From contig JAHDHW010000002.1 of assembly GCA_020631105.1 (NCBI GenBank), positions 96,308 through 160,307 of the forward strand: DNA of 64,000 bases, in the 5' to 3' direction. Below, in pieces: positions 35,265 to 56,734 of the stretch. The notes beneath the pieces are model-generated. The model did not search any database. It saw only the letters and a program-made list of their open reading frames with translations, and was not told the origin of the DNA. The first letter of the stretch is position 1, and every line of letters begins with the position of its first letter. Both the position numbers and the translations under genes were made by a program. Source of the DNA: Saprospiraceae bacterium. GTDB lineage: Bacteria; Bacteroidota; Bacteroidia; Chitinophagales; Saprospiraceae.

Positions 35265-35272
35265 TATCTTTG
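35265..35272 (+). promoter_or_regulatory. Putative -7 element (TATCTTTG) upstream of the phasin-like gene cluster
   Basis: Exact match to TAnnTTTG, about 38 nt before the ATG at 35311. Confidence 0.5.
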
Positions 35273-35310
35273 CACCATAATTATTTGAAAAACATCTTAT
35301 ATCTAATAAA

Positions 35311-35931
35311 ATGGCAACAAAGAAAGTATCAAAATCAAAAGTGGAGCAAGTAGCAGATAACGTAAAATCAACTGCAGTAAACATCCACGATGAAGCATTA
35401 AAAGTATCTGACAACTTAGTAGAGGGTTCATTAGCAACCGGAGCGAAATGGCAAAAGATTATGGCTAAAGCGCTTACTGAAGGAACAGAACTTTTGGGCA
35501 AACAACAAGACTTCCTTTTTGACACTTTAGAAGAAGTTAAAGGTCAATACCTAAAAGGAAACAAACGCTTTATGAAGCTTATCGGTTTTGAATTACCAAA
35601 ACCACGTAAAGTAAGAAAAGCAATCAAAGCTAAAACTGAGGCAGTTGAAACTACTGTAAAAAAAGCAACGAAGAAAGTAAGCAGAAAGGCTAAAGCTGTT
35701 GCGCCTAAAGCTTCTGCAAAAACTGACATCAAAAAAGATAACCTGAAGCAGATCGATGGTGTAGGACCAAAAATCGAATCTTTATTACAAGTAGCAGGTA
35801 TCAATACTTTTGCAAAAGTAGCTAGTACAAGCGTAAAAGATTTACAAGCGATTTTGGATACTGCAGGACCTCGTTTCCGCGCTCAAGATCCTTCAACCTG
35901 GAGAGCTCAGGCTAAACGTTTAGCTAAGTAA
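35311..35931 (+). CDS. Phasin-like / Lys-Ala-rich helical protein fused to a C-terminal helix-hairpin-helix domain
   Basis: N-terminal amphipathic helices 'DNLVEGSLATGAKWQKIMAKALTEGTELLGKQQDFLFDTLEEVKGQYLKGNKRFMKLIG', basic linker, C-terminal HhH 'LKQIDGVGPKIESLLQVAGINTFAKVASTSVKDLQAILDTAGPRFRAQDPSTWRAQAKRLAK'. Confidence 0.75.
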   Translation: MATKKVSKSKVEQVADNVKSTAVNIHDEALKVSDNLVEGSLATGAKWQKIMAKALTEGTELLGKQQDFLFDTLEEVKGQYLKGNKRFMKLIGFELPKPRKVRKAIKAKTEAVETTVKKATKKVSRKAKAVAPKASAKTDIKKDNLKQIDGVGPKIESLLQVAGINTFAKVASTSVKDLQAILDTAGPRFRAQDPSTWRAQAKRLAK

Positions 35932-36002: not shown

Positions 36003-36506
36003 ATGGCAACTAAGAAAGTAGCAAAAAAAGTAAACAAAAAAGACGTTAACAAATTTGATTTCTCTGATAGCATCAAAGCAATCAAAGGAACTGCAAAGAC
36101 AGTTAACAATCAAGTAAAAGACGCAGCAGAAGAAGTAATGGAAGATCTTCGTGAGAACGGAACTCAACTTCGTGAAGTAGCCGTTGCACGTGCTAAAAAG
36201 ACTTATAATAAAGCATACAAATCTGTAGCAGAGGTAGCTGAAAACGTTGCAGAAACTGTAAACGTTGAAAATATCTCAAAAGTGACTAAAGACGTAAATG
36301 ACTACACACTTAAAACTGCTGAAGAGTTAGTAGAAGGTGCAATCACCAATGGTGAAAAGTGGCAAGGCGTAGCTCAAAAAGCAGTTAAAGGTGGATTGAA
36401 ATTAGCGGCAAAACAACAAGACATTGTATTTGATACTTTGGAATCACTCAAAGGTCAACTTACAAACACTACAAAAAGATTCAGAAAATTAGTTTCTAAT
36501 AACTAA
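36003..36506 (+). CDS. Phasin-like helical protein, paralog of the upstream gene
   Basis: 'EELVEGAITNGEKWQGVAQKAVKGGLKLAAKQQDIVFDTLESLKGQLTNTTKRFRKLV' aligns with the 35311-35931 product; both begin MATKKV. Confidence 0.75.
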   Translation: MATKKVAKKVNKKDVNKFDFSDSIKAIKGTAKTVNNQVKDAAEEVMEDLRENGTQLREVAVARAKKTYNKAYKSVAEVAENVAETVNVENISKVTKDVNDYTLKTAEELVEGAITNGEKWQGVAQKAVKGGLKLAAKQQDIVFDTLESLKGQLTNTTKRFRKLVSNN

Positions 36507-36604: not shown

Positions 36605-36976
36605 ATGAGCGGAAGTATCAGTAAAGTTTTAAAAACAACAAAACAAGCAAATGCTATCCTAGGGAAAGCTGGAGGAATTATTTTTAAAACTTCTTTCAAC
36701 ACCGCGAAGCAACTTGCAACGCTTTATAAAGATGCCGGAGTAAAAGCATTTCAATTGAGCAAAGAGGTAGTAACGAAGACCGTGGAGTTGACTTTGGATA
36801 ACCAAAAGCAAGTCATCAAAACTTCCGGAAAAGCAATTAAAGATGCTGCAAAAAGCATCCGTGAGCAAGAGCCAGAATTACAAACGATGACTAAGGCGAA
36901 AGCTAAGCGTACAAGAAAGACAACACCTAAGCGTAAGAACGTAAAAAAAGAGATCACAATCGATGACTTAATTTAA
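36605..36976 (+). CDS. Small helical protein with histone-H1-like basic C-terminal tail (phasin-like)
   Basis: 'FNTAKQLATLYKDAGVKAFQLSKEVVTKTVELTLDNQKQVIKTSGKAIKDAAKSI' followed by 'KAKAKRTRKTTPKRKNVKKEITIDDLI'. Confidence 0.65.
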   Translation: MSGSISKVLKTTKQANAILGKAGGIIFKTSFNTAKQLATLYKDAGVKAFQLSKEVVTKTVELTLDNQKQVIKTSGKAIKDAAKSIREQEPELQTMTKAKAKRTRKTTPKRKNVKKEITIDDLI

Positions 36977-37251: not shown

Positions 37252-38409
37252 ATGCGAATTATCCTTTTTACAGGAAAAGGGGGCGTAGGTAAAACTACCG
37301 TTGCAGCCTCAACTGCCCTTAAATGTGCGCAAGAAGGAAAGAAGACCTTGATTATTTCTACTGATCCTGCACATAGCTTATCCGATGCCTTAAGTTTGAA
37401 ATTAGGGCCGGAGCCCCAAGAGATTGCAGATAACCTTTTTGCACAGGAGTTTGATGTATACTACTCCATGCAAAAGCATTGGGATAATATGCGGAACCTG
37501 ATGAACACCATCTTCCGCTGGCGTGGGGTAAAAAACGTAGTGGCTGAAGAACTCTCTGTATTGCCAGGAATGGAAGAAGCATCTGCCTTTCTTTGGTTAG
37601 AAAAATATTACCAGGAGGGAGAATACGATGTGATCGTTATCGATAGCGCACCTACCGGAGAGACCTTAACTTTGCTTTCTCTACCGCAAGTTGCGAAATC
37701 CTGGATGACGAAAGCATTCAATAGCAAAAACATTGCGGTCAAAACAGTAACCAAAGGAGTAAAGTTTTTTACGGGAGTGCCCTTGGATAAAGGACTGGAA
37801 GAACTGGATGAGCTTTTCAATAAACTAGAGAAAATTCAGGAGGTTTTCCTGAATCCTGAAATTGCCTCTATCCGTATCGTTACTAACCCAGAACGAATGG
37901 TCATCAAGGAAGCGCGTCGCGCATATACGTATCTACAGCTTTATGGTTATAATGTTGATGGAGTAGTGATCAACCGTATTCTTCCGGAAAAAAATGTGGG
38001 CTCTGCTTTTAAATATTATGTGGAGTCGCAAAAAGAATATATCGAAGAGATTGAAGAAACTTTCCAGCCTTTGCCAATCCTTAAAGTACAGCATCAGGGA
38101 CGAGAAGTATTCGGACTGGAGCAACTAAGTAAAATTGGAAACTCTGTATACGCTGATCATACCGCCTCTGAAGTGCTATACCTGGATAAGCCATTTGAGA
38201 TCTTCGAAAATAGTAAAGGATATTTTTTCAAAACGAAATTACCTTTTGCAAAAGAAGGAGATATCGAATTGAATAAGTTTGGAGATGAGTTGGTGATTAA
38301 TCTTGGTAACAGAAGACGTTCTTTAATCTTACCTCGGTTCGCTAACTTTTTGAAATTAGGAGAATATCGATTTAAAGATTCTTATCTGGTAGTCGCTTTA
38401 GAAAAGTAA
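37252..38409 (+). CDS. Get3/ArsA-family ATPase with C-terminal HSP20-like domain
   Basis: Deviant Walker A 'FTGKGGVGKTTVAASTAL', switch 'DPAHSLSDAL', 'VIDSAPTGETLTLLSLP'; C-terminal 'GYFFKTKLPFAKEGDIELNKFGDELVINLGNRRRSLILP'. Only one Cys in the whole protein. Confidence 0.9.
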   Translation: MRIILFTGKGGVGKTTVAASTALKCAQEGKKTLIISTDPAHSLSDALSLKLGPEPQEIADNLFAQEFDVYYSMQKHWDNMRNLMNTIFRWRGVKNVVAEELSVLPGMEEASAFLWLEKYYQEGEYDVIVIDSAPTGETLTLLSLPQVAKSWMTKAFNSKNIAVKTVTKGVKFFTGVPLDKGLEELDELFNKLEKIQEVFLNPEIASIRIVTNPERMVIKEARRAYTYLQLYGYNVDGVVINRILPEKNVGSAFKYYVESQKEYIEEIEETFQPLPILKVQHQGREVFGLEQLSKIGNSVYADHTASEVLYLDKPFEIFENSKGYFFKTKLPFAKEGDIELNKFGDELVINLGNRRRSLILPRFANFLKLGEYRFKDSYLVVALEK

Positions 38410-38512: not shown

Positions 38513-39265
38513 ATGGTGCAACAGTTGAAAACAGATACGCCAATTACACGCCCTTCTCTTTGGAAATATATCGGAGAACATATAAAGGTATGGTTTGAGG
38601 TATTTCGTTTTTTACGATTTAAGCGCCATTTTAAACCTAAGGCAGATGGTGATGGCCATCCGGTTTTGGTGATCCCTGGGTTTATGACTACAGACTGGTC
38701 GACACGAACTTATCGCAGTTATATTGATGAATTTGGTTACCAGTCTTACGGCTGGGGACTCGGGCGTAATTTAGGAGATATTAGCGAACTCAATATCCTG
38801 GAGGAAAAAATAGATGAACTTTATGATAAGCATCAGGAGCCGGTCAGCCTGGTTGGCTGGAGTCTTGGAGGGGTGTATGCTCGTCAGTTGGCAAAAGTAA
38901 AATCAGCTAAAGTTCGTCAGGTGATTACTGTTTGTTCCCCATTCGCCGGAATTGATCAGCCGAATAATGCTAAATGGCTTTTTAACCTGGTCAGTGTCGG
39001 GACTGAGGTCTCGGAGGCAGACAAACAGAAATGGACTCAGGATATTCCTTCACCTGCTCCTGTACCTACTACCGCCCTCTTTTCTAAGGATGATGGGATT
39101 GTTCCCTGGGCCGCTTGTATGGAGTGTGAAGAAGACAATCTTCATCAAAATGTTGAGATTAAAGGGACTCACTTTGGGCTGGGATTTAAACCTTCTGTCC
39201 TCCATATTACCCAAGATCGATTAAAATATACCAAAGAAAACTGGCCTCCTTATAAAGCTAAATAA
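38513..39265 (+). CDS. Alpha/beta hydrolase (lipase/esterase-like)
   Basis: 'HPVLVIPGFMTTDWSTRTYRSYID', nucleophile elbow 'LVGWSLGGVYAR', 'TALFSKDDGIVPWAACM', late His 'GTHFGLG'. Confidence 0.88.
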   Translation: MVQQLKTDTPITRPSLWKYIGEHIKVWFEVFRFLRFKRHFKPKADGDGHPVLVIPGFMTTDWSTRTYRSYIDEFGYQSYGWGLGRNLGDISELNILEEKIDELYDKHQEPVSLVGWSLGGVYARQLAKVKSAKVRQVITVCSPFAGIDQPNNAKWLFNLVSVGTEVSEADKQKWTQDIPSPAPVPTTALFSKDDGIVPWAACMECEEDNLHQNVEIKGTHFGLGFKPSVLHITQDRLKYTKENWPPYKAK

Positions 39266-55741: not shown

Positions 55742-56734
55742 ATGGATTTAGAAAAATTCAATAGCTTTATTACTCAGTTATTTACTGAAATGTCCCATGA
55801 GGATAGTATTGTAGTGCTAACATTCCTGCTGGGATCTTTTTTGATCGGCCTTCTTTTTGGCTGGTGGTCCGGGCGTAGTGGAGTGCGTAAATTTAAGAAA
55901 GCACTAAAGAAAAAAGAAGACGAGCTAGTTGCTCTAAAAGCAGAACACCAGGCTGTACAAGAGCAACTTGGATTGAAAGAAGCGGATCTGACCAAGGCAC
56001 ATTTAGAAATCGAAGAACTTAAAACTAAGTTGTCTCAGATTGAAAATGAAAAAGCTCAGGTTAACGCACAGCTTTTCGAATCTTCATCTGCTTTAGAGAA
56101 TCTTAAAGCGGATCATTTAGCAAGTCTTTCACAAATAGAAGTGTTGAATAATCAAATTGCAGATTATGCGGATTCAACAGTCGAAGGTGTAAGACCTTCC
56201 TTAGGAGATGTGGATCTTACTTCCGTACAAAATAACTATGATAATGCGAGCATTCGACTTTCTGCTATTGAGGACAAACTGGCCAGACTGGAGCGAGAAA
56301 ATGTAAGCTTAAAATCTGAGATCAATAATATCAAGGGGAATGACACTCCGATTGCTTTCTTGGATGAAGAGCCTACTGTAGATGATAATGATGAAGAGTT
56401 AGAAATTGAAGATGTTGCGGATGATTACGAAGCAGACGCCTTGATAATGGATCCGGAAGAGCGGGCTGCTGTAGCTCGTCAAAGAATTCAGGCGGCATTT
56501 GGTGAGCGGATAATTGTAGCTAACATTGCGGACAAGGATGACCTAAAAAAGATCAATGGCATTGGACCTTTTATCGAACAAAAGCTAAATGATATTGGTA
56601 TTTATACCTATAATCAAATTAGCCAATTCGATGATGACTTGATTAATCAGGTGACAGATGCTATTCAGTTTTTTCCTGGTCGGATCAAACGAGACGATTG
56701 GGTCGGTCAAGCCAACCGTCTCAAAAAAGGCTAA
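55742..56734 (+). CDS. TM-anchored coiled-coil protein with C-terminal helix-hairpin-helix domain
   Basis: TM 'DSIVVLTFLLGSFLIGLLFGWWSG', long heptad-like region, C-terminal 'DDLKKINGIGPFIEQKLNDIGIYTYNQISQFDDDLINQVTDAIQFFPGRIKRDDWVGQANRLKKG'. Confidence 0.8.
   Translation: MDLEKFNSFITQLFTEMSHEDSIVVLTFLLGSFLIGLLFGWWSGRSGVRKFKKALKKKEDELVALKAEHQAVQEQLGLKEADLTKAHLEIEELKTKLSQIENEKAQVNAQLFESSSALENLKADHLASLSQIEVLNNQIADYADSTVEGVRPSLGDVDLTSVQNNYDNASIRLSAIEDKLARLERENVSLKSEINNIKGNDTPIAFLDEEPTVDDNDEELEIEDVADDYEADALIMDPEERAAVARQRIQAAFGERIIVANIADKDDLKKINGIGPFIEQKLNDIGIYTYNQISQFDDDLINQVTDAIQFFPGRIKRDDWVGQANRLKKG

Follow-up and report, generated by a model that had tools for sequence, protein, structure and literature searches.

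What body, if any, does a small helical protein with a C-terminal helix-hairpin-helix (HhH) domain tie to nucleic acid in a Saprospiraceae bacterium? The question is raised by a gene at 35311-35931 on the + strand of a 64,000-nucleotide stretch of GenBank assembly GCA_020631105.1 (hereafter the window). The first-pass annotation described its product as a phasin-like helix bundle fused through a Lys-rich linker to an HhH domain, and proposed that it could tether granules or assemblies to nucleic acid. The gene is, as that annotation gave it, an intact ATG-initiated open reading frame encoding a 206-aa protein. The features discussed below are:

35265..35273, + strand: candidate Bacteroidota -7 promoter element upstream of the first gene, match TATCTTTGC, a reading of the sequence
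35311..35595, + strand: amphipathic long-helix domain, residues 1-95, the predicted droplet-binding part, kept in relatives
35596..35727, + strand: Lys/Ala-rich basic linker, 30% Lys, pI 11, low pLDDT
35728..35931 (stop included), + strand: HhH domain, residues 140-206, with GVGPK hairpin, from profile matches and an AF2 model
36003..36506, + strand: HhH-less paralog with two copies of the helical domain (HMM), predicted to be a plain coat protein
36605..36976, + strand: PH3, another small helical protein with a Lys tail, the third in the row and conserved in a subset of the family
37252..38409, + strand: Get3/ArsA-like ATPase with HSP20-like C-terminal domain (Pfam ArsA_ATPase, 1.1e-96)
38513..39265, + strand: alpha/beta-hydrolase with GWSLGG and Ser nucleophile, lipase/acyl-esterase-like, conserved within the WS/DGAT cluster
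55742-56734: product of 330 aa whose C-terminus is an HhH of the same kind, preceded by a probable N-terminal membrane helix and a coiled coil

The -7 element of Bacteroidota promoters has the consensus TAnnTTTG; a scan for sigma-70-type promoters gave results at chance level. PH3, the ATPase and the hydrolase follow the paralog on the same strand, separated by gaps of 98, 275 and 103 bases.

The overall architecture proposed at the outset, a helical domain, a linker and a C-terminal HhH, is borne out by the reading frame, profile matches and the AF2 model, in which linker residues 98-138 are disordered. Several methods agree on the HhH itself. Pfam HHH_5 matches residues 140-206 (E 9.4e-5, under its curated cut-off); the NCBIfam L21, NuoE and PhaH models, whose own C-termini carry the same domain, match the C-terminal end of the protein at 1.7e-12 to 4.1e-9; and the HhH profile matches PDB chains 8yy9_O (9.9e-11) and 9wqv_a (5.8e-10). 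AF2 models a helix-GxG hairpin-helix fold confidently (pLDDT about 90, with about 89-94 across residues 141-206); with this model as query, Foldseek retrieves the HhH folds of RadA, pol iota and NusA-AR2. The hairpin GVG occupies residues 150-152, and K154 is invariant in 14 aligned orthologs.

The window's genome encodes several HhH proteins. The domain had been described as an appendage of several Bacteroidota proteins, ribosomal protein L21 among them; the ribosomal proteins so decorated in Saprospiraceae are L27, S1 and S16 rather than L21, the L21 matches being to NCBIfam models and not to proteins of this genome. Loci L002, L006 and L007 of the same genome and L031 of genome G102 place the HhH on L27, S1, S16 and an NrfD/alternative-complex-III-like membrane protein. 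The same HhH also follows a Lys-rich linker in small Saprospiraceae proteins whose other domain is a glycogen-recognition CBM (AMPK1_CBM, E 1e-6 to 7e-6; L004:1447-2079 in the window's genome, L025:1180-1833 and L037:1438-2118).

The N-terminal domain departs from its first description in two respects. Instead of a helix bundle, AF2 with 47 relatives predicts, with moderate confidence, one helix spanning residues 4-90, and mean hydrophobicity across 47 aligned copies varies coherently along 75 residues with a period of 98-100 degrees, a periodicity equaled by 0 of 1000 shuffles. Both results predict a long amphipathic helix, as expected for a protein that sits on a hydrophobic surface. Membership in a recognised phasin family was also dropped. 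None of the Pfam phasins PF09361, PF05597 and PF09602 scores above its curated cut-off for the window protein, and neither it nor the paralog reaches the cut-off of any Pfam or NCBIfam phasin model; "phasin" is therefore only a functional analogy for this domain. A Foldseek search with the N-terminal helix gave zero matches, and no homology between this domain and any known protein of droplets or granules could be demonstrated.

The neighbor at 36003-36506 lacks an HhH, as first reported, and carries the same helical domain. The suggested division between a tethering protein and a structural one would be plausible. Paralogs give weak, sub-threshold matches to apolipoprotein, rubber-elongation-factor, senescence-domain and phasin models, which are only consistent with a surface-coat reading; a PDB sequence search with the paralog profile returns mostly designed helical proteins and is therefore uninformative. 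PH3 has a weak match to Phasin_2 (16.1 bits, under the 24.9 cut-off).

The first-pass annotation had made its proposal hinge on conservation of the fusion in relatives, and the loci examined contain 31 distinct HhH-bearing orthologs. Fusion and HhH-less neighbor are conserved as a gene pair in Saprospiraceae and some marine Flavobacteriaceae. When 396 genomes were drawn from across the phylum, only the window's own genome and one weak match came up, so the family is rare outside these groups. Where contigs are long enough to show it, the pair is usually part of a single cluster, most often in the order U170, BTAD, phasin-HhH, phasin2, hydrolase, WS/DGAT-SCP2 and GPAT/HAD/AGPAT, the last being a GPAT-phosphatase-AGPAT fusion that lies on the opposite strand in the commonest arrangement. 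Searching with the paralog alone led to Flavobacteriaceae loci (Winogradskyella vincentii, W. alexanderae, Lacinutrix himadriensis, Aquimarina sp. and isolate LYZ1037) with the same WS/DGAT/TAG gene set. In the subgroup to which the window's genome belongs, PH3 and the Get3-like ATPase are inserted into the cluster and kept side by side, and WS/DGAT lies further off: three genomes have it at 8.7, 15 and 47 kb, and in others it is on a different contig. The ATPase is 72-85% identical between genera and might serve in the delivery of membrane or droplet proteins. Most loci encode, immediately upstream of the pair, a conserved protein of ~170 aa belonging to no recognised family (U170) and a BTAD-domain protein of ~270 aa (for example L066:4459-5775 and equivalents); no BTAD gene was found in the window's genome. 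By analogy with MLDSR, which regulates MLDS, the U170 and BTAD proteins are possibly a regulator.

Which granule the protein might serve had been left open, and here the evidence favors neutral-lipid droplets produced by wax ester synthase/diacylglycerol acyltransferase (WS/DGAT) over polyhydroxyalkanoate (PHA). Among 150 genomes of the same family, 30 encode the pair and WS/DGAT, 3 the pair only, 14 WS/DGAT only and 103 neither. WS/DGAT is present in 30/33 pair-bearing genomes versus 14/117 others (Fisher p 1.4e-17, and 1e-15 at genus level, both values including the contribution of shared ancestry). Physical linkage is a line of evidence separate from co-occurrence: pair and WS/DGAT share a contig in 21 of the 30 genomes and lie within 5 kb in 18. 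WS/DGAT went undetected in three pair-bearing genomes (G009, with a weak pair match, G068 and G149), and several of the 14 genomes with WS/DGAT and no pair have shorter enzymes, of about 490-510 aa. The window's genome encodes a WS/DGAT with a C-terminal SCP2 domain and an intact HHVAIDG motif, on a contig other than the pair's, and a GPAT-HAD phosphatase-AGPAT fusion. Because the pair co-occurs and clusters with WS/DGAT and TAG-synthesis genes, we read the protein as a droplet coat; context makes the case for this assignment, taken by itself, strong, and we consider it highly likely.

The nature of the C-terminal binding partner is addressed by what takes the place of the HhH in other species. 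Ten orthologs lack the domain (an eleventh case, L091, is interrupted by a gap in the assembly and is not among the ten), and 9/10 end in a Lys/Ala-rich basic tail of 80-195 residues. The tail of the Aquimarina ortholog (L103) contains three exact PAKKA motifs plus ten less strict versions. Mapped onto the WS/DGAT tree, the HhH/tail state changes 4 times, with at least 2 changes forced by strongly supported branches. In Rhodococcus, PAKKA motifs of MLDS bind DNA without sequence specificity and draw it to TAG droplets (PMC5504291). Since an unrelated DNA-binding tail occupies the same position in orthologs, the job of the HhH would be nucleic-acid binding. Its replacement by a known DNA-binding device is, as judged from these sequences, the best evidence we have for that job, and the HhH probably does bind nucleic acid.

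Taken together, these observations suggest a mechanism, and we infer all three of its elements: droplet binding, DNA binding and tethering. The protein would form a surface coat on cytoplasmic neutral-lipid droplets (triacylglycerol and/or wax ester), with its N-terminal amphipathic helix of ~85 residues laid along the surface of the droplet. Linker and HhH, the former flexible and Lys-rich, would grip the nucleic-acid phosphate backbone, nucleoid DNA being the most likely target and sequence playing no part in recognition, and the HhH-less paralog would be a plain coat protein. Droplets would in this way be spread along the chromosome and shared out with it. Tethering remains the best reading of the protein, as first proposed, with WS/DGAT context now specifying the granule as neutral-lipid droplets; we regard the mechanism as a whole as reasonably likely.

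A protein of similar design is known from PHA granules. The HhH phasin PhaH of Caulobacter crescentus, a protein of PHB granules, is reported to bind DNA through its HhH (Salinas et al. 2023, as cited in PMC13052382, a review of organelle positioning). The window protein likewise combines a granule-type N-terminal helical domain with a C-terminal HhH of the same subfamily; this PhaH-like architecture, the match of its C-terminal part to NCBIfam PhasinPhaH (NF045508, 4e-9) and a class III PhaC in a few relatives would suit a PhaH-type phasin tying PHA granules to the nucleoid. However, the match scores 37 bits against a cut-off of 250 and spans only the linker and HhH (residues 103-205), leaving the N-terminal domain unmatched. 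The window's genome, 96.6% complete, has zero matches to PhaC_N or class III PhaC and instead encodes WS/DGAT and TAG genes, and the window protein, unlike PhaH, belongs to a two-gene pair. Class III PhaC exceeds the cut-off in 2/33 pair-bearing genomes versus 15/117 others, no more than expected and with no association with the pair. Given the unmatched N-terminal domain, the score far below cut-off and the missing PHA synthase, the tests made place the protein outside the PhaH family. The PHA reading was dropped because the genome gave no match to a PHA synthase, and we think it very improbable.

Other alternatives accept part of the evidence and reinterpret the rest. The HhH may bind RNA, ribosomes or proteins as a general interaction module, and a droplet coat could use it to contact translating ribosomes or other HhH proteins instead of DNA. 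Such a role would fit the occurrence of the same HhH on L27, S1, S16 and an NrfD-like membrane protein within the family, and the best PDB sequence matches of the domain, which are reaction-centre and complex I subunits. It fits less well with the fact that all 14 aligned orthologs retain a GxG hairpin and an invariant Lys after it, with the exchange of the HhH for H1/PAKKA-like tails and with the reported use of such an HhH for DNA by PhaH (PMC13052382, which relays that finding); we consider it unlikely, if the most serious of the rivals. That the protein is mainly nucleoid-associated or histone-like, its genes merely riding with lipid genes, would account for the strongly basic linker and HhH and for the several HhH proteins in the genome. 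It would leave unexplained why conserved, adjoining HhH-less paralogs have the amphipathic helical domain in common, and so tight an association with WS/DGAT is unexpected for a general nucleoid protein; we give this little credence. A structural role in another assembly, such as polyphosphate or another compartment, unrelated to lipid, has a precedent in AlgP, which positions polyphosphate granules through an H1-like tail (PMC13052382). Yet the conserved neighborhood is one of acyl-lipid synthesis and contains nothing related to polyphosphate, so that this too seems very remote.

We also considered whether one portable HhH module might, as a common adaptor, link several kinds of storage body in Saprospiraceae to the nucleoid (or ribosome), with coats and tethers freely recombined. 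The module would then sit on lipid-droplet coats, on the AMPK1_CBM protein for glycogen and on ribosomal proteins, and the AMPK1_CBM-HhH proteins are possible glycogen-granule counterparts of the predicted lipid-droplet protein. We hold this broader scheme to be doubtful.

Returning to the droplet tether, its closest functional parallel would be MLDS, the major lipid-droplet protein of Rhodococcus jostii RHA1 (PMC5504291). The predicted logic is the same, with an N-terminus on TAG droplets and a basic C-terminus on DNA, and PAKKA-like tails occur among the window protein's orthologs. The window's genome contains the neutral-lipid gene, WS/DGAT, expected of a host for an MLDS-type tether, as known from the gene alone. 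In contrast to MLDS, the window protein comes from another phylum and has an HhH in place of PAKKA repeats, of which it contains 0; homology between the N-terminal domains is not expected. PhaF, PhaM and AlgP, H1-like proteins that tether PHB and polyphosphate granules to the nucleoid (PMC13052382), resemble it in using a single protein for granule and nucleoid and in their Lys/Ala-rich region, but serve other granules, and the HhH accompanies or replaces the H1-like tail in the family studied here. A survey of WS/DGAT in sediments describes an SCP2-bearing Bacteroidota enzyme (~613 aa, SCP2 at the C-terminus) with an acylglycerol-phosphate acyltransferase/hydrolase nearby, as in our clusters; its passage on the Bacteroidota cluster does not mention helical coat proteins or an HhH (PMC10351704). 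By analogy, then, the window protein would work most like MLDS and appears built most like PhaH. HhH phasins and droplet-DNA tethers are each known, and their combination appears new. Our predicted assignment, held with moderate confidence, is a nucleoid-tethering granule protein for the neutral-lipid droplets of Bacteroidota.

To our knowledge, the dispersal and inheritance of lipid droplets in bacteria have been elucidated for very few species beyond Rhodococcus. If our reading is true, it would provide a defined droplet coat and tether system for Bacteroidota, including cultured species of Winogradskyella and Lacinutrix, and the evolutionary exchange between HhH and H1-like tails makes the binding target of the tether directly testable. 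The protein would also offer a droplet marker for oleaginous marine Bacteroidota.
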